A stretch of 54,773 nucleotides of DNA from positions 1 through 54,773 of the forward strand of contig CALHLC010000038.1 in the NCBI GenBank assembly GCA_938034385.1, in the 5' to 3' direction. The translations under genes were made by a program, and so were the position numbers. Of the stretch, positions 2,881-53,474 are shown piece after piece (position 1 is the stretch's first letter; each line of letters starts with the position of its first letter). This DNA is from an uncultured Bacteriovoracaceae bacterium (lineage in GTDB: Bacteria > Bdellovibrionota > Bacteriovoracia > Bacteriovoracales > Bacteriovoracaceae). Under the pieces are notes generated by a model. It was not told the origin of the DNA. It did not search any database and saw only the letters and a program-made list of their open reading frames with translations.

Positions 2881-3912
2881 TTAATGAACAACTCGCTCTC
2901 TACCTTGAGCTTTTTGAAACAATACTTCTTCACTAACATTTGAAATTTTTTGAATAGATTCAGAAGGCTTATACCAACATCTACTTCTAACACCAGCTTG
3001 GCTGCCATTATTTGTTTTAAATCTATTACAAAGATTTTTATTAGGGTTACTTTGGCTAACAACGTCATCCATTGATAAGTCACAAAGAGCACCTCTTAAG
3101 TAAGTATCAAGTCTACATTGTGGCTCAGGGTGAGTTGCAACTGTAGCATCAACTTTTTTCTTAGACGGAGTTTCAAATTCAGGCAGATCTTTTTTGCTAA
3201 TAGAAGCTAAAAGTCTAGCAGTAGAATATCCACCCATAGCACTTCTTAGGCATATTGCTCTATCGTCCATACTTGTATAAACACTATTACAAGCCTCAGC
3301 TGCGGAAGAGCTCAAGTAATTCTTAATTCTTTTTCTTTTAGATAAGCTTTTATTTTTAAATTTTGAAAATCTCTTCTTTAAAATCTTTACGTTATCAAAT
3401 TCAGAATAAATTCTTCTTGTACACTTTGCATTTGCCCAATAATCAGATTGACCTTCCACAGAAGCCCACCTGTTTAAAAAGAATGTGTTCTTTGGTGATC
3501 CACCAATATGATGTCCTAGCTCATGACATAAAACAGTTATTAAACCATCAACAGTTGTTTCTTTATGCCTAGCAAGTCCACCCCAGACTTCAACATGATA
3601 AGTTCTAGTAAAAAACGGTCTTTTAGCAAAAGCATTAACTCTATCGTCTTTCCAATTATTAACAATTTTTAAATTGCCTTCGTATCGTTTTTTTACGATA
3701 GGCTTATAAATATCTTCAACGATTTGAATGACTTTATCTGTAACTTCTTTAGATAAACCGCCTTCATTCTTTAATGACTTGTTTTTGTTTACAGGTACTC
3801 TTGCACTATTTTCAGGTAAGAATCCTTCGCAAAGAGTGTGATCATGACTTACATAAACCATAGTAAATACAGTCAAACTCAGTCCCATTAATATTTTCCC
3901 TAATCTTTTCAT
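2881..3912 (-). CDS. secreted zinc metallopeptidase-like protein, paralog 3
   Basis: 343 residues from the ATG at 3912, chosen because GGAGGG lies just before it and a signal peptide follows; an in-frame upstream start at 3975 has no such support. The zinc motif is H130-E131-x2-H134-H135, with E153 in EGQSDYW as likely third ligand. The C-terminal half carries the family's Cys-containing blocks (CRLDTYLRGALC, RCWYKP) and a 25-residue extension missing from the other copies. It is the intact sister of the amber-interrupted gene at 357-1313. Likely an exported protease; the target is unknown. Confidence 0.8.
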   Translation of the reverse strand: MKRLGKILMGLSLTVFTMVYVSHDHTLCEGFLPENSARVPVNKNKSLKNEGGLSKEVTDKVIQIVEDIYKPIVKKRYEGNLKIVNNWKDDRVNAFAKRPFFTRTYHVEVWGGLARHKETTVDGLITVLCHELGHHIGGSPKNTFFLNRWASVEGQSDYWANAKCTRRIYSEFDNVKILKKRFSKFKNKSLSKRKRIKNYLSSSAAEACNSVYTSMDDRAICLRSAMGGYSTARLLASISKKDLPEFETPSKKKVDATVATHPEPQCRLDTYLRGALCDLSMDDVVSQSNPNKNLCNRFKTNNGSQAGVRSRCWYKPSESIQKISNVSEEVLFQKAQGRERVVH

Positions 3913-4015
3913 ATACCCTCCAAATGGTATTTTTTGCCCCTTAATGTGTAATGAAATCTTAAGTAAAGGACTCAAGCTTGGCGATCAAAGAATACTTTTA
4001 TGCTCTTACAAGATG
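3913..4015 (-). repeat. upstream region shared with the amber-interrupted paralog (copy 2)
   Basis: This is the counterpart of 1314-1412: the same order of landmarks on the minus strand, ending in the GGAGGG ribosome binding site. The block TTTACTTAAGATTT is the best conserved part and probably contains promoter or operator elements, although no clean -35/-10 pair stands out. Confidence 0.6.
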
Positions 4016-36742: not shown

Positions 36743-38416
36743 CTATAAATTTAAATTCACCCCAGCAGGCTTCACTATACTAAGCAAGTTCTGAAATGCT
36801 CCTGTTACCTGACTAGCAATCTCTCTTCCTCCGCTGGAATCAACATTCTTCACTTGTCCATAAGCATCATACTGAACTTTAATATTTCCTATCCCATCCA
36901 TTCCTATAACGTTAGGTTTCCCTTGTGAATTATAAGAAAATGAAACGATTTGTTTTTTTGAATTTTTAGCTCTATTCACCATCTTAGAAATTTTGCCTTT
37001 CAAATCATAGATTAAAGCAATTGCGTTTCCTTTTGAATCAATGGCCTTAGAAAGCTCTCCCTTTTTATTGTATTTGTATTGAATCCAGCCTTCATTATTA
37101 GTAATTTTTGAAACTCTCTTTGTTCTTGAGTCATACTCAAGATTTGAAAAAACTCCATCATTAGATTTTTTTGAAATCATTAGACCTTTATTATATTTAA
37201 ACTCAGTAACTCTACTTCCTTGAATAATTTTTTTAGGGAGTTCAACTGCATTATTAAAAGTCTCTCTTGTTATGCCGCCAACAAGTTTACTTCCTTTTCT
37301 ATCAGCACCAGTGATGAACTTTGTTCTATATAACCATTGAGATCCATCCGCTCTTAATTTATGTTCATATTCGTACTTATTAACATAAGGCTGCCCACTT
37401 ATCCCTTTTTTATCTACTTCAGTCCAATAATGAAGGAACTTTTTATCTTTTGAACCATATTTATACTCAACTATATCTCCATTTCTCTTCTCAACTTTTC
37501 TTGTAAAAAAGGTCTTAGGTTCATAAGCGATTTTAATAGTTGATTTATTTTTATCTCTAATCTTTCTATCAGTTATTGCAGTTAAGTTATGAGATCCATC
37601 ATACCCATAAGTAAAAGAACTTCCATTAATATCAGTAGAAGTAATCAAGTTCTTATTAGCATCATATGAATACGTTGCCTTGTTATTCCCTTTAGCTGCC
37701 ACCGAAGAAATAAATCCATTAGAATTCCAAGTGATGACAAAGCTATTTCCTAAATTATCAAAAATCTTCTCAACTTTCTTTGTTACTTTATTCCTACTAA
37801 ACTTTAATGAATAGCCACTTTTATTTTTTGATGCAATCAGATCTCCATCAACATTAAAAAATTGAACTAGACCAGAATCAAATGCTCTTTTATATCCCTT
37901 TGGAACAACTGCTAGTTTTTGATATCCATAATCAAATGATTTTAATATTCTGCCTGCTTTTATTGGAGCTTTAATTCCTAACTTTTGAGCCATCTTATGC
38001 CTAAAAATATCATCATCTGTTAATTTTTTTAACAAACTCTTTTCCGAAATTTGACTAAGCTGTGTTTTCTCTTTTAGTTTCTTTATAATCCCATTTGAAA
38101 TTTTTCTGATATTTGAAGTACTAGATCCAGTTGTTCCATCAGTGAACCTACTTTTTCCTCCAGTACCATTTTCAATAATATAAACAGAGCCATCTAGAGA
38201 AGCCTCTAGCTTTGTTTCAAAAGGTGTTCCCCATCCATAACCAAACCATCCAACAGATGTTGACTTTGAATTATAGGTTCTAGTCATATCAATTGTTTTG
38301 CCTCTACTACTCGTCACAATATCAGTATAAGAAATAAAGTAATTCCCGTTTTTTAAGTTTACTCCACTCATTAAATTGAGTGATAGAAATAAAAGTAAAG
38401 TACTCAGTTTTTTCAT
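36743..38416 (-). CDS. RHS/YD-repeat exported protein
   Basis: 557 residues with a signal peptide (MKKLSTLLLFLSLNLMSG). Residues 20-110 resemble the start of RHS proteins (GNYFISYTDIVTSSRGKTIDMTRTYNS, GYGWGTPFE). YD-type repeats follow from about 220 (TYSYDANKNLITSTD, FTYGYDGSHNLTAITD, IQYKYNKKGELSKAIDSKGN, IQVQYDAYG-like). The protein ends soon after the repeats, with no RHS core signature and no toxin domain. It is much shorter than typical Rhs effectors. It begins 22 bases after the Tad gene at 38439, so it may be carried on that transcript. Confidence 0.75.
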   Translation of the reverse strand: MKKLSTLLLFLSLNLMSGVNLKNGNYFISYTDIVTSSRGKTIDMTRTYNSKSTSVGWFGYGWGTPFETKLEASLDGSVYIIENGTGGKSRFTDGTTGSSTSNIRKISNGIIKKLKEKTQLSQISEKSLLKKLTDDDIFRHKMAQKLGIKAPIKAGRILKSFDYGYQKLAVVPKGYKRAFDSGLVQFFNVDGDLIASKNKSGYSLKFSRNKVTKKVEKIFDNLGNSFVITWNSNGFISSVAAKGNNKATYSYDANKNLITSTDINGSSFTYGYDGSHNLTAITDRKIRDKNKSTIKIAYEPKTFFTRKVEKRNGDIVEYKYGSKDKKFLHYWTEVDKKGISGQPYVNKYEYEHKLRADGSQWLYRTKFITGADRKGSKLVGGITRETFNNAVELPKKIIQGSRVTEFKYNKGLMISKKSNDGVFSNLEYDSRTKRVSKITNNEGWIQYKYNKKGELSKAIDSKGNAIALIYDLKGKISKMVNRAKNSKKQIVSFSYNSQGKPNVIGMDGIGNIKVQYDAYGQVKNVDSSGGREIASQVTGAFQNLLSIVKPAGVNLNL

Positions 38417-45513: not shown

Positions 45514-45708
45514 ATAGAGCTTGGTGAATAATTAATGTTTCGCCCTACAAAGTATGTTTCGGGAGCAGTCCCTGGCTATGGTGAGCAAGCCCGACTATTA
45601 TGATCTGTTAAGAATTTTAATAGATGATCGGGAAGCCTAAAGTAGCTATTTATCGCGCCCACCTTAATTATTAGGGGCGCGAAACTTAACATTCACCGGG
45701 CCCTTTTT
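45514..45708 (+). ncRNA. ssrS: 6S RNA
   Basis: The region between the Flp-like gene and 45754 (393 bases) has no gene but folds as 6S RNA. An 11-bp closing stem joins 45519-45529 and 45691-45701. The interior has the family's conserved strings: GAGCAGTCCC, GGTGAGCA followed by GCCCGA, and GATCGGGAAGCCTAAA, which match the same places in E. coli 6S RNA (CAGTCCCC, GGTGAGCATG, CCGAGAAGCCTTAAA). A small hairpin (45653-45682) sits on the 3' side, as in E. coli. 6S RNA mimics an open promoter and holds the housekeeping RNA polymerase in stationary phase. CCCTTTTTAT at the end serves as terminator. Confidence 0.92.
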
Positions 45709-47325: not shown

Positions 47326-48255
47326 TTATAAATTAATTCCTAAAGCCTTAATTGTATCAAAAGTTAATCCTCCAGTAGGAAGACCGTTTGATCTTTGGAA
47401 TCTCTCAATAGCTGTAGCTGTTGAATTTCCTAATTGACCATCAGTAGCTCCACTGTGAAAGCCAGCTTTTTTAAGAGCAGATTGAACTTTAGAGATAGTT
47501 GAATAATTTGCATTTGTTTTACAAATAATCTGAGCCCACTCAGTTCTTGAGTCAGAAACTTTTACTCTTTTAGTAAGTTTTTGAAATTTAGCAGGAATTC
47601 TATGCTCAACTGTTCTAGGTGGTTCTAACATCCTTTGAACTCTAACAGTTTTATAAACAGCTGGAATTGGCTTAGAAACAGTTCTTGCTGGTTCAACTTC
47701 AACCTTTTCATAAACAGTTTTATAAACAGCTGGTTTTTTAACTAAACATAAAGCTTCGTTTCCTGAAGTTCCATTAGAGACTCTATTTAATGTAGTACTT
47801 CCGTTAGAATAAGCAACACCACTTGTTCCTCTTCCATTATCTCCTCTTTTCCACTCAGTTGTTTCTGGAGAAACTAAAACTTTTTTAGAAACAGTTTTAT
47901 ACTTAGCAGGAATAGTCATTAAAGTTTCAGAAGCTTCTTTAACTAGAACTTTTTTAGTTTCATAACCATACTTAGCAGGAACAGTTGAAAGTCTTGTACT
48001 TTCAGGACTAGCTTGCATAGTTTCAGTTACAGTTTTAAATTTTGCAGGGATAATAACTTTAGCAAAACACTGTCCTGGGATAGCGTTTGATGGCCGATCA
48101 CCAGCTCCGTTAAAGTTTAAATTAGATCCTTCAGTAATCATTGCATTTGCAGTTGCACTCATGTTGAAGTTGTCATCTTTGATAATTCTTTCAGTGATTT
48201 TTGCAAAACCAGTAGAAACAACTAAAGCACACATTAGTAATAGACTTTTTGTCAT
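47326..48255 (-). CDS. exported 23-residue repeat protein with PG-binding domain (6 repeats)
   Basis: 309 residues from the ATG at 48255; the ATG four codons upstream lacks a better site. After the signal peptide come six imperfect units of 23 residues with pattern IPAxYxTVxxKVxVxP. A linker with a Cys (EALCLVKKP) separates units 3 and 4, and a PG_binding_1 domain forms the C-terminus (STISKVQSALKKAGFH, TDGQLGNSTATAIERFQRSNGL). Three conserved Cys lie at GQCFAK, EALC and IICKTN. It probably anchors to the wall via the C-terminus; the repeat function is unknown. Paralog of 49305-50450. Confidence 0.8.
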   Translation of the reverse strand: MTKSLLLMCALVVSTGFAKITERIIKDDNFNMSATANAMITEGSNLNFNGAGDRPSNAIPGQCFAKVIIPAKFKTVTETMQASPESTRLSTVPAKYGYETKKVLVKEASETLMTIPAKYKTVSKKVLVSPETTEWKRGDNGRGTSGVAYSNGSTTLNRVSNGTSGNEALCLVKKPAVYKTVYEKVEVEPARTVSKPIPAVYKTVRVQRMLEPPRTVEHRIPAKFQKLTKRVKVSDSRTEWAQIICKTNANYSTISKVQSALKKAGFHSGATDGQLGNSTATAIERFQRSNGLPTGGLTFDTIKALGINL

Positions 48256-48354
48256 GTTTTCCTCCATAGGGTTAAATTCTTCATCAGAAGATATTGTTTA
48301 ATTTGGATATTTTTAGGATATTAGATCAAGATAATCAAGTTATACGCGTCGCGG

Positions 48355-49304: not shown

Positions 49305-50450
49305 TTACATTTGAATATTTAAAGCTCTTAAAGTTTCCATAGTAAGTCCGCCACCTACCATTAAACCTTTAGATCTTTGAAAGCTCTCAATTGCTCTATA
49401 AGTACTTGGTCCTAATCTTCCATCAGTTCCACCAGTTCTATAACCTGATCTCGTTAAAGCTTGTTGTACTCTAGCTACAGTTGACTGGTTAGCATTAGTC
49501 TTACAAAGAATTTCAGCCCAAACAGTTTTTGAATCTTGAACCATTACTCTCTTACTTACAAAGTCATATTTTGCAGCAATTGGATTTTCAATAGTTCTAG
49601 GTGGCTCAATCATTTTTCTAACTTTTACAGTTTTATACTGAGCAGGAACTGGAACAGTTTTAACCTGAGCTGGTCTATCGATAATTCTTTTCTTAACTGT
49701 TTGAAATTGAGCAGGAATAACTTTTGATTCCGTTCTAGCTGGACTCACTTCAACTTTTTCGTAAACAGTTTTATATACAGCTGGCTTTTGAACTAAACAA
49801 AGTGCTTCGTTATTAACTCCACCACCTGAATTATCACCTTTTTTCCATTCAGTAGTAGCAGCTGAAACCATTATTTTCTTAGGGACAGTTTTATACTGAG
49901 CAGGAATTTTCATTAGTGATTCACTTTGATCTACAACCTGAACTCTCTCTTGAACCCACTTATAAGTAGCTGGGATAGTAACGTGTCTCTCAGATGCCTC
50001 TTGAACTAAAATTCTTCTTTCTTCATATCCATACTTTGCTGGTATAGTTGATACCCTTGAACTCTCAGGGCTAACAACAATTCTTTCTTTAGTCGTCTGA
50101 TACTTTGCTGGAATAATGATTTTTGTAAAACATTGACCAGGTCTAGCATTAGCTGGAATATCTGCTCCAGTCATAGGAGAAGCAACATTTGCTTGAGCAA
50201 CTTCATAACCAGTACTCGCGATACCTCTGGTACTTGTTCTTGAAACCCCTCTTGTTCCTCTTCTCATTTTTCTTGAAGTTCCCCTTCTTTGATAACGAGT
50301 AGAACTACTTACTTTATTTTTAAGTGATCTTATTTTTGTTGGTACTTCATCATCAAAGTCCGTGCTGTAATTTGCATAAGATGTTGATGTTCCTGAAATT
50401 GCAATAGAACTTAAAATCATACACAAAGAAATTAAAATGTGTTTTGTCAT
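49305..50450 (-). CDS. exported 23-residue repeat protein with PG-binding domain (8 repeats)
   Basis: 381 residues. A signal peptide and a Ser/Thr/Arg-rich region (about 45-85) precede eight units of 23 residues (pattern IPAxYxTVxxxVxVxP) and a C-terminal PG_binding_1 domain (STVARVQQALTRSGYR, TDGRLGPSTYRAIESFQRSKGL). It has the same three Cys sites as its paralog at 47326-48255 but two more repeat units, one in each half. GGGAG precedes the ATG. Probably attached to peptidoglycan; the role of the repeats is unknown. Confidence 0.82.
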   Translation of the reverse strand: MTKHILISLCMILSSIAISGTSTSYANYSTDFDDEVPTKIRSLKNKVSSSTRYQRRGTSRKMRRGTRGVSRTSTRGIASTGYEVAQANVASPMTGADIPANARPGQCFTKIIIPAKYQTTKERIVVSPESSRVSTIPAKYGYEERRILVQEASERHVTIPATYKWVQERVQVVDQSESLMKIPAQYKTVPKKIMVSAATTEWKKGDNSGGGVNNEALCLVQKPAVYKTVYEKVEVSPARTESKVIPAQFQTVKKRIIDRPAQVKTVPVPAQYKTVKVRKMIEPPRTIENPIAAKYDFVSKRVMVQDSKTVWAEILCKTNANQSTVARVQQALTRSGYRTGGTDGRLGPSTYRAIESFQRSKGLMVGGGLTMETLRALNIQM

Positions 50451-50635: not shown

Positions 50636-51817
50636 TTAAATTTGTAGCTTTGCCCAAATAGCTAAGTGGTCGCTAGCCTTTTTTGCTTTGTAAAAGTCCT
50701 TGCTTACCCATGCTTTGCACGTCATTCCATTGTCTTTGTAGCTTACTAATACCTTATTGGGTCTAAATTGCTTTGTATAAGAACTTCCACAACCAATTTC
50801 CTCTCTTTGAGGATCTGGGTAATGCACCCCTGATTTTAAAACCCTAATTTTATTACTCACTAAAATATAATCTAACTGTGCACTATAGGCACTTTTTCCA
50901 AAACTTTGCCCCACATACGTTTTCTCGTTGTTTCCTGGAGCATACTGAAATAATTTTCCTAATTGTTTAATTATTTTGCCACCTGGGTTTTTTGAACTCG
51001 GATCAACATTCCAGTCTCCCATTGCAATAAATAAAGTATTTTTCCTAAGAGGCTTTACTTTAATATTAAAGCTAAACTTAGACTTTCCTGTTAAATACCA
51101 TTTCAAAAATTCGAGCTGATCATGGTTTCTCTCAAAGTTTGGAGTAAGTTTATTACCAAATCCAAATGCTGGAACTGTATGAAGTAAAATAACATGCAGT
51201 TCTTTACCATTTACATCCAAAGTGATGTCACTGAAATTTTTATCAAAAAGTTCCATGTCTCTTGGTAACTTATTCCCATTAGCATCTCTATATTTTGATA
51301 AATTAATATTTGGATTAAAGTCTCTCCACTTTAAACCTTTAATGATCTTTTCGCTTTTTATTGGATATTTAAAAATCCCACCAGTTGAGTACTGACCAGG
51401 AAACATTCCAAAATTTACTGCATCAGCAAAATTTTTCCTCTCTTCACTAGTTGGCTTTAAAATATAATTCCCATCAAGTCCTGGCTTTGAGTTCATTCCA
51501 GTATTTGCTTCATGAAAAGAGTAATTCATCTTTTTTAGCTTAGAGAGCTTTCCTAAAACCTTTAAGTTTTTCCCTCTAGTTGTAAAATCTGAAGTTGGAA
51601 CTTCTTCTTTATCATACTGAATTTCATTAATTGAGATTATATCTGGGGAATATCTTTCAATGATTTCAGAAGAGTATTTTACTTGTGCAGATTGAAGTTT
51701 TCTGGCTTTTTTGATTTTCGTACTATCTAGTTCTTTTATATTATAGTGAAATACCTTTATCGTTTGAGAATGACCGGCACAACTAAAAAAAGTGACAAGA
51801 AGCATTAGAAATTTCAT
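50636..51817 (-). CDS. secreted endonuclease/exonuclease/phosphatase-fold protein
   Basis: 393 residues with a signal peptide (MKFLMLLVTFFSCAGHSQ). Motifs of the family are in order: FHYNIKEL, ISINEIQYD (metal Glu), GDWNVDP (Asp/Asn pair), AQLDYILVS and the C-terminal SDHLAIWAKL (Asp-His). Fold members cut DNA, phospholipids or inositol phosphates; the substrate here cannot be told. TAGGAGAG supports the start. An exported enzyme of this kind fits prey or environmental DNA digestion, which is inference. Confidence 0.82.
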   Translation of the reverse strand: MKFLMLLVTFFSCAGHSQTIKVFHYNIKELDSTKIKKARKLQSAQVKYSSEIIERYSPDIISINEIQYDKEEVPTSDFTTRGKNLKVLGKLSKLKKMNYSFHEANTGMNSKPGLDGNYILKPTSEERKNFADAVNFGMFPGQYSTGGIFKYPIKSEKIIKGLKWRDFNPNINLSKYRDANGNKLPRDMELFDKNFSDITLDVNGKELHVILLHTVPAFGFGNKLTPNFERNHDQLEFLKWYLTGKSKFSFNIKVKPLRKNTLFIAMGDWNVDPSSKNPGGKIIKQLGKLFQYAPGNNEKTYVGQSFGKSAYSAQLDYILVSNKIRVLKSGVHYPDPQREEIGCGSSYTKQFRPNKVLVSYKDNGMTCKAWVSKDFYKAKKASDHLAIWAKLQI

Positions 51818-51994
51818 TTTACTCTCCTATAGATAAAACTCTTCTACACTATTTGGTCATAATTGGAAAATTGTCTCCGAAGATTACTTAGATACAAGAC
51901 AACCAATTTAGGGACTATAAAAAGTGTTCTTTTTACTCTTTTTCAAGTTGGAGTTATAATTTCCTATATTCTTTTTTACAGATAAGATGTATTC

Positions 51995-52528
51995 ATGACT
52001 TTTTTAAAATTAATGATTTTTCTTTCTATCGCAAGCTATTCTAAGTCAGGTTATGAAGCTTGTTTAAATGAAGGTCATAGCCACCACACTTGTAAAACAG
52101 CTAATAATGGATATGCTGATTGCCGGAAAGATAAGATTAGACACGTTGTGTGTTTAAAGGCTTCAAGTGGATATTCTGATTGTAAAAACTATGGAAAATA
52201 TCCAACAACCTGTTTAAAGGCACAACCTGGCTATAAGCAATGTCGTAAAGCAGGTTATCACCATTCAAGGTGCCTAAAAGCTCAAGGAGGTTATAGTGAT
52301 TGTCGTGCAAATCAGCGACACCATTCGACTTGCCTAAAAGCTGAAGAAGGATACTCTGATTGCTTAAACTCCGGCAGACTCCATTCAAAATGCTTAAAAG
52401 CACGAGCTAATTATTCAACTTGTTTAAAAGATAACCATTATCACTCGAGGTGTTTACAGACTGGCCACGGTTACAAGTATTGTAAAACAGTTCGATCAAA
52501 TAGTAAGGAATGCTTAGGTATTTATTAG
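51995..52528 (+). CDS. exported protein made of eight 20-residue Cys/His repeats
   Basis: 177 residues: a signal peptide of about 18 residues, then eight tandem units of 20 residues covering the whole mature chain. Each unit reads GYxxCxxxxxHxxxCLKAxx with Cys at 5 and 15 (C-x9-C), a Tyr at 2 and, in most, His at 11-12; the last unit is shorter (ends ECLGIY). Sixteen Cys make serial disulfide loops or metal sites equally possible. I recognise no family. The start is set by the signal peptide; no Shine-Dalgarno is seen, and TAAGAT lies six bases before the ATG. The gene ends one base before the convergent lipoprotein gene. Confidence 0.8.
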   Translation: MTFLKLMIFLSIASYSKSGYEACLNEGHSHHTCKTANNGYADCRKDKIRHVVCLKASSGYSDCKNYGKYPTTCLKAQPGYKQCRKAGYHHSRCLKAQGGYSDCRANQRHHSTCLKAEEGYSDCLNSGRLHSKCLKARANYSTCLKDNHYHSRCLQTGHGYKYCKTVRSNSKECLGIY

Positions 52529-53377
52529 TTATCTATTTTCTACTGTAAAAACATTATTCTCAAGCATGCCAGGAATAAGAATAAGGTTCTGAGTAGGAAG
52601 ATAGCCGATATCAGCAAGTCCCTTTTTACCTTCAAATAATATAGAAGATTGACCTTCACGAGAAACTTTAAAAACTTTTCCTGCAACCCAATCAGAGACC
52701 AAGAAGTCTCCATTTTTATCAAGCTCTAGTCCATCTAAATTTCCAAGTGGATTTTTTGTTATGTTTGTAATTGATTTGCTCTCTCTATCTATCCAGTATA
52801 GTTTACCGGGGATTTTTGTAGACCAATCAGTAGTTAACCCCCAAGCTGCAACATAAAGCCTTCCCGATAAATAAAGTAATCCATTTGGAGATTCCAAATG
52901 AGGCCCCTTAACAAAAAGACTACTTTCATAGTTTTTAATTTTATAAATACTACTTCCGATTGTATCGGAAACATACACTACACCTTCTGGCGTAATAGCA
53001 ATGTCATTTAAAAACTTTGCATTAGGGATACTAATTTCTTTAATAATAGTTCCGCTTGAGATCTCTATTACTAGTACTCTATCAATGTCAGAAACATATA
53101 AATTTCCATAATATGCTCCCATTCCTTTAGGAGCATTCAACCCAGACACCCATTTTTTCTTTAAGGTCTTACCATCCATAGGAGAGAGTTTTGAAATATA
53201 CCCTTTACCATCTTTAGCTGCCCCTTCTCCTTCAACGTTGGAAACAAAAACAACATTGCTCTTTTTTTCATAATAAGCAGATTCTGGATTTAAAAAAACT
53301 TCTGTGCTTTTCCAATTGCTTTTTTTCTCTATTGATGATGTACAGGAAATAAATAAGAGAATAACTAACAACTTCAT
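52529..53377 (-). CDS. lipoprotein with SMP-30/gluconolactonase-like beta propeller
   Basis: 282 residues from the ATG at 53377, which has AGGAG in front; the longer frame to 53437 would run into tRNA-Val. The N-terminus ends in LLFISC (Cys12), a lipobox. The rest has repeated propeller strands such as GYISKLSPMDGKT, LNDIAITPEGVVYVSDT, PNGLLYLSGRLYVAAWG and LDGLELDKNGDFLVSDW, close to SMP-30/strictosidine synthase-like proteins. Enzyme activity is not evident. It begins 20 bases after the encoded CCA of tRNA-Val. Confidence 0.75.
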   Translation of the reverse strand: MKLLVILLFISCTSSIEKKSNWKSTEVFLNPESAYYEKKSNVVFVSNVEGEGAAKDGKGYISKLSPMDGKTLKKKWVSGLNAPKGMGAYYGNLYVSDIDRVLVIEISSGTIIKEISIPNAKFLNDIAITPEGVVYVSDTIGSSIYKIKNYESSLFVKGPHLESPNGLLYLSGRLYVAAWGLTTDWSTKIPGKLYWIDRESKSITNITKNPLGNLDGLELDKNGDFLVSDWVAGKVFKVSREGQSSILFEGKKGLADIGYLPTQNLILIPGMLENNVFTVENR

Positions 53378-53397
53378 ATGACTCCTAATTTTTTCAA

Positions 53398-53474
<77 letters not shown>

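Follow-up and report, generated by a model that had tools for sequence, protein, structure and literature searches.

An exported protein of eight 20-residue cysteine units, from a scattered repeat family, as a probable disulfide-stapled helical scaffold

Here, we ask what is encoded by a short gene whose product consists, behind its N-terminus, of eight successive cysteine units, and what such a protein might do for the cell that makes it. The gene lies in a contig of an uncultured Bacteriovoracaceae bacterium (CALHLC010000038.1), of which the whole 54,773-nucleotide stretch analysed is called the window below. We propose that the product is probably an exported, oxidised solenoid of eight disulfide-closed hairpins that acts as a passive scaffold at or outside the cell surface.

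The open reading frame at 51995-52528 (+) translates without interruption into 177 residues, its coordinates and translation being exact. Its N-terminus, with a short n-region, a hydrophobic core and an SYS-K context, was read by eye as a likely export signal, and the N-termini of its relatives are likewise hydrophobic and signal-like. Behind this hydrophobic stretch (about 16-18 residues), residue 19 opens an array of eight 20-residue units, the eighth having 19 residues. Upstream, a consensus scan returned a promoter-like site with 10 of 12 matches, for which support is weak because three such sites were found against 3.0 expected by chance. The features of the gene are the following.

51932..51960, + strand, promoter-like site (TTTACT, 17 nt, TATAAT)
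51995..52528, + strand, repeat-protein coding sequence, 177 aa with 16 Cys; pI of the mature chain about 9.3
51995..52048, + strand, putative N-terminal export signal, Sec type, 16-18 residues
52049..52108, + strand, unit 1, GYEACLNEGHSHHTCKTANN
52109..52168, + strand, unit 2, GYADCRKDKIRHVVCLKASS
52169..52228, + strand, unit 3, GYSDCKNYGKYPTTCLKAQP
52229..52288, + strand, unit 4, GYKQCRKAGYHHSRCLKAQG
52289..52348, + strand, unit 5, GYSDCRANQRHHSTCLKAEE
52349..52408, + strand, unit 6, GYSDCLNSGRLHSKCLKARA
52409..52468, + strand, unit 7, NYSTCLKDNHYHSRCLQTGH
52469..52525, + strand, unit 8 (19 residues), GYKYCKTVRSNSKECLGIY

The 16 cysteines stand at residues 23, 33 and so on to 173, with all intervals exactly 10; this spacing is shown by 15 Cys pairs, whereas 100,000 composition-preserving shuffles average 1.4 such pairs and never exceed 7. 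Within the window the units follow the pattern [GN]-Y-x-x-C-[RKL]-x-x-G-x-x-H-x-x-C-L-x-A-x-x, Gly9 and His12 being absent from some of them: GY is found in seven of the eight (unit 7 has NY), His at position 12 in six and LKA in five. The eight 20-residue Cys units claimed by a previous, sequence-only reading of this DNA are thus borne out, and the signal peptide that it saw is likely. Its strict frame holds for the 16 Cys but is looser than claimed for GY, His and LKA, and its 20-residue frame stands with the addition of a point that it missed, namely that the actual Cys period is 10. Pairwise DNA identity between the units is 21-40 of 60 bases, and codon agreement at the residues common to them (49%) does not exceed the 54% that codon usage alone predicts, which means that they are saturated rather than recently copied. 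Judged by their codons, the repeat units of the window are old.

Relatives of the protein had to be sought by the repeat itself. Whole-protein similarity searching of 59 relatives gave chance-level matches only, and the family was queried with a profile 40 columns wide that spans two consecutive units (version A1 and later the wider A2). Among 369 genomes in the phylum of the window, the A2 profile matched 11 (E <= 0.001), a tally that counts the window's own genome, and a phylum-level search around an Elusimicrobia genome gave 4 of 295 (E <= 1e-4), two of the four being already known; a search centred on a Polyangiaceae genome gave 0 of 284, with no positive control in that group. None of the three sampled congeners yielded the repeat (E <= 0.001), and phages and viral contigs held no relatives of the repeat protein. 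A DNA pattern of the Cys/Tyr frame, run against genome contigs, produced mostly low-complexity frames among the matches listed, from which L048, L103, L078/L133, L104 and L090 were kept; a Nonomuraea Rhs protein was also among them. Matches on Priestia plasmids were rejected, the one checked being antisense to a pentapeptide-repeat gene.

Sixteen proteins combine tandem units, a Tyr or Phe three residues before Cys5, Cys5 and Cys15 ten apart, and Gly9. Family proteins have about 3-9 units each, and most have an export-type N-terminus. The consensus of 80 units is G-[YF]-x-x-C-R-x-x-G-x-x-H-x-x-C-x-x-A-x-x, in which Cys and Tyr/Phe are invariant by construction, since units were selected on Tyr/Phe and Cys spacing, with Gly1 in 71%, Gly9 in 77%, Arg6 in 58%, His12 in 59% and Ala18 in 66%. 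Units are more alike within than between proteins (L165 is the sole exception), a pattern that lineage-specific amplification would produce. In the close pair L162 and L163, the codon differences (18 synonymous, 1 non-synonymous; dN 0.0027, dS 0.243, dN/dS about 0.01) indicate strong purifying selection on the gene where it is retained. Pfam, NCBIfam, PADLOC and PHROGs hold no model for the 20-residue repeat; the Pfam entry Decapeptide (PF25296), at 29.6 against a cut-off of 45, was taken as periodicity. By these searches the repeat family is new to the libraries, undescribed and widely scattered. The sequence-only reading was therefore right in calling the family apparently unclassified, supported in describing a regular, secreted Cys architecture, and right in expecting homologues with a varying number of units and the same Cys spacing, and its view that the units are old and kept by selection agrees with both the codon agreement and the dN/dS ratio. 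Its expectation that homologues would occur mainly in related predators failed, as the repeat is also present in Elusimicrobia and at the tips of actinobacterial Rhs proteins, is rare in its own phylum and escaped detection in the three congeners.

The window gene stands alone between a divergent nuclease-family gene and a convergent NHL/SGL-like gene.

50636..51817, - strand, divergent neighbour, exported endonuclease/exonuclease/phosphatase-family protein (Pfam PF03372)
52529..53437, - strand, convergent neighbour, NHL/SGL-like lipoprotein (weak Pfam SGL/NHL)
53398-53474, same strand as the overlapping ORF 52529-53437, tRNA-Val

Because the longest ORF overlaps tRNA-Val, the lipoprotein probably starts near 53377, at a lipoprotein-like Met. 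Both neighbours are conserved in the congener G003 (78% and 65% amino-acid identity), where the slot equivalent to window 51818-52528 is filled by a GNAT acetyltransferase gene (L226 4660-5178); since the sampled congeners moreover gave no repeat, the repeat gene is accessory. The alternation of GNAT and repeat gene between conserved neighbours, near tRNA-Val, has the form of a gene-swap site. By eye, the gene neighbourhoods of 12 relatives showed no common partner. In L158, an exported Cys-rich repeat protein with ACREAGYTNQSCH-type units, also CX9C and without a Pfam family, is encoded divergently to the family gene (3202-3732, -). Elsewhere in the window, three neighbouring copies of an exported protein (357-974, 1490-2479 and 2881-3975) share the motif HE[IL]GHHxGG, by which they are likely zinc peptidases, the middle copy having no Pfam match; a gene similar to these copies lies near the G139 repeat gene (L161 5157-5903). 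Two paralogous exported proteins (47326-48267 and 49305-50450) carry repeated IPAKY-KTV segments and a C-terminal PG_binding_1 domain, and 45514-45707 is a 6S RNA (Rfam, 62.2 bits).

What fold might the units adopt? For the window protein (16 sequences), AlphaFold2 predicts two short helices per unit, eight times over, the first of about 6 residues near positions 2-7 and the second of about 4 near 12-15, and for the distant relative L158 a nearly identical helix layout. Confidence is good (mean pLDDT 90.1 and pTM 0.81 for the window protein; 85.6 and 0.66 for L158), with over-confidence possible on perfect repeats and alignments of 14-16 sequences. This is the outcome of the structure prediction that the sequence-only reading had proposed. 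Foldseek found no match in the PDB at E <= 1e-3 for either model; the sub-threshold matches of the L158 model were all designed proteins (helical repeats, toroids, assemblies). A VIA second look and the viral library yielded nothing further on structure.

The pairing of the cysteines can be approached through the family. Arrays of 14 of the 16 proteins have an even number of Cys, and 11 of the 16 begin with Cys5 and end with Cys15, that is, they consist of whole units. Residues have been added without loss of Cys, inside the hairpin in L162 and between units in L166 and L220, while His12 is absent from every unit of L157, L217, L166, L220 and L159 and Cys is never absent. Extracytoplasmic oxidative folding is within the organism's means, as its own genome carries genes for a VKOR-DsbA fusion and two DsbA-like lipoproteins. 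Cysteines that are kept and paired in their pattern, insertions that are tolerated and a His that is dispensable together favour self-contained units with a Cys5-Cys15 bond, and favour disulfides over metal binding. Among the three options that had been offered for this protein (a chain of disulfide loops, a metal-binding ladder or a binding scaffold), the best fit is a chain of disulfide loops that serves as a binding scaffold, and the metal ladder loses ground.

We infer that Sec exports the repeat protein and that it is oxidised outside the cytoplasm, where each 20-residue unit would close into a very short helical hairpin (predicted helix 1 at about 2-7, turn at 8-11, predicted helix 2 at about 12-15), one Cys5-Cys15 disulfide per unit joining both helices. 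Stacked head to tail, the eight hairpins would form a solenoid that is stiff and withstands proteases, in which Tyr2, Ala18 and the Gly turns would be the conserved small or aromatic positions and the freely varying positions would form the surface. The most likely role of such a solenoid is that of a passive scaffold that binds its partners on the cell surface or beyond it, perhaps in contact with other cells. Net charge in the family ranges from +16 (window) to -6, and since surface charge is thus not conserved, no common ligand can be read from it; the varied charge, the lack of an evident shared partner and the variable non-Cys surface suit a general scaffold with different ligands.

A pointer to such contacts comes from actinobacteria, unrelated bacteria of the soil, and their Rhs proteins, which are of the polymorphic-toxin type. 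A search of 201 genomes centred on the Nonomuraea Rhs genome gave three matches (E <= 0.001), all of them C-terminal tips of Rhs proteins of 3300-5300 residues, immediately behind the Rhs core.

L223 6147-14000, - strand; also L232, L233 and L234: Rhs/YD-repeat proteins with a Cys/Tyr repeat tip, in Nonomuraea and relatives

Profile search and profile comparison show the tips to be like the window repeat in their YxxC-x9-C-x6-YxxC arrangement; the comparison of the Rhs-tip set with the window-type set gave 96% probability (E 3.8e-9), a score of which Cys and Tyr spacing make up a large share. Unlike the window protein, the tips have a more variable spacing, no conserved His, and a fusion behind the Rhs shell. 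Directly downstream of the Rhs gene, L223 and L232 each encode a further exported protein made of this repeat. The papers searched contain no description of this repeat in Rhs tips. Its position there suggests that the repeat serves contact between bacteria. A bolder and more doubtful idea, which we put forward only tentatively, is that the repeat is an exported recognition module in cell-cell antagonism across several phyla and is among the shortest natural alpha-helical solenoid units (20 residues, one disulfide), standing alone in Bdellovibrionota and Elusimicrobia and occurring in Nonomuraea and relatives as a variable Rhs tip, accompanied by a partner that is exported on its own and built of the repeat too. 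As a separate observation, the window encodes a small exported RHS-repeat protein (36743-38416; PF05593, DUF6531) adjoining tad-type pilus genes.

Could the Cys and His of each unit instead bind Zn, Cu or another soft metal, making the protein a secreted store or scavenger? There are 16 Cys and 12 His in 159 residues, and HxxC occurs in six of the eight window units and frequently in units of about nine family proteins, but in five relatives whose Cys periodicity is perfect no unit has a His at that position, the Cys lie 10 apart rather than in CxxC pairs, no evident metal genes adjoin the repeat gene and the host has periplasmic thiol oxidants, which makes metal binding quite improbable. It is also unlikely that the disulfides run between units, each Cys15 pairing with the Cys5 that follows it, which would make the chain a string of covalently joined beads in place of self-contained hairpins. 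Such bonds would suit L157, whose array starts with Cys15 and ends with Cys5, and L162, in which the Cys15-Cys5' distance is constantly 10 and the in-unit distance variable. Most arrays, however, run from Cys5 to Cys15, so that the first and last cysteine would have no partner, it is the distance between units that varies in L220 and L166, and the hairpin bonds of thionins and of Hcp/Csep1P join the helices of one hairpin (PMC4695807, PMC12904459).

The activity of the protein, rather than its bonding, is at issue if it is seen as a cationic antimicrobial or membrane-active protein, a thionin-like chain of hairpins damaging other cells. The clade of the window organism includes predators, the window protein is strongly basic (+16), it matches the thionin profile and the same repeat is found at Rhs tips; yet one relative is acidic and the majority have a pI close to neutral (6.5-8.3), the match to the thionin profile is confined to the hairpin, and no immunity-like gene is found among the neighbours, so we give this activity little credence. 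Far less probable still is true homology with the mitochondrial twin-CX9C (CHCH) proteins, of which the family would be a bacterial branch. CHCH proteins such as NDUFA8 and Pet191 share the CX9C spacing, with a Cys about every 10 residues through a helix-turn-helix, and their inner disulfide pair closes a helical hairpin of like spacing. Sequence comparison with the PDB gave a few weak matches (best E 0.14), NDUFA8 being one of them, and L158 scores 30.7 bits against Pet191_N (cut-off 24.4), more than every shuffle. Shuffles with Cys and Tyr fixed nevertheless reach 16.8 bits on CHCH-like profiles, for which reason such matches are weaker evidence and the resemblance is owed in part to the spacing of Cys and Tyr by itself; Pet191_N membership of L158 was rejected after shuffle controls and structure prediction. 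CHCH proteins have long helices and two disulfides per domain, whereas helices of about 6 and 4 residues are predicted here and tandem 20-residue arrays are foreign to the CHCH architecture. Neither the pair of CX9C helices with two disulfides nor, by Foldseek, any CHCH structure was found. The CX9C motif of the CHCH proteins is described in PMC5509380.

The disulfide-closed solenoid thus stays our preferred reading. Our analysis defines an undescribed and readily recognised repeat family, which probably represents a minimal helical scaffold stapled by disulfides that would be useful to protein designers, and the repeat in Rhs tips gives a first testable hint of a role in bacterial contact.

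How does the repeat compare with known systems? It is like plant thionins and crambin (PF00321) in sharing a local hairpin motif, which in crambin reads Tyr/Phe-x-x-Cys-Arg-x-x-Gly-x5-Cys. Seven relatives and the window protein match the Pfam Thionin profile, in each case on the hairpin part (about positions 4-33 of 46); the window protein scores 18.6 against a cut-off of 23.6 and four relatives exceed that cut-off (24.0, 27.0, 27.6 and 40.6), scores that are summed over repeats and include no full-domain stretch. None of 10 Cys-fixed shuffles matched the profile. In 8-Cys thionins the CysIV-CysV bond joins alpha1 and alpha2 (PMC4695807). Thionins, however, are single domains of 45-48 residues with beta strands and 3-4 disulfides, whereas the repeat is hairpin only, tandem and bacterial; a full thionin domain (6-8 Cys, beta1-alpha1-alpha2-beta2) was not found, the prediction being all helical, and the resemblance is likely convergence.

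HcpB and HcpC of Helicobacter and Csep1P of Campylobacter are alpha/alpha solenoids stapled by disulfides whose Cys lie about 9-10 residues from each other, and a role as binding scaffolds has been suggested for them (PMC12904459). The window protein would share with them exported bacterial tandem alpha/alpha hairpins with one disulfide per hairpin, here presumed. Hcp repeats are Sel1-like, of about 36 residues with full helices, in contrast to the 20-residue unit and its much shorter predicted helices; neither the window protein nor its relatives matched Pfam Sel1 at E up to 1, and PDB solenoids gave no significant Foldseek match. We conclude that the protein would belong to a kind known from the Hcp proteins, the disulfide-stapled helical repeat scaffold, in which its 20-residue unit and its predicted fold are, within the limits of the searches, new.
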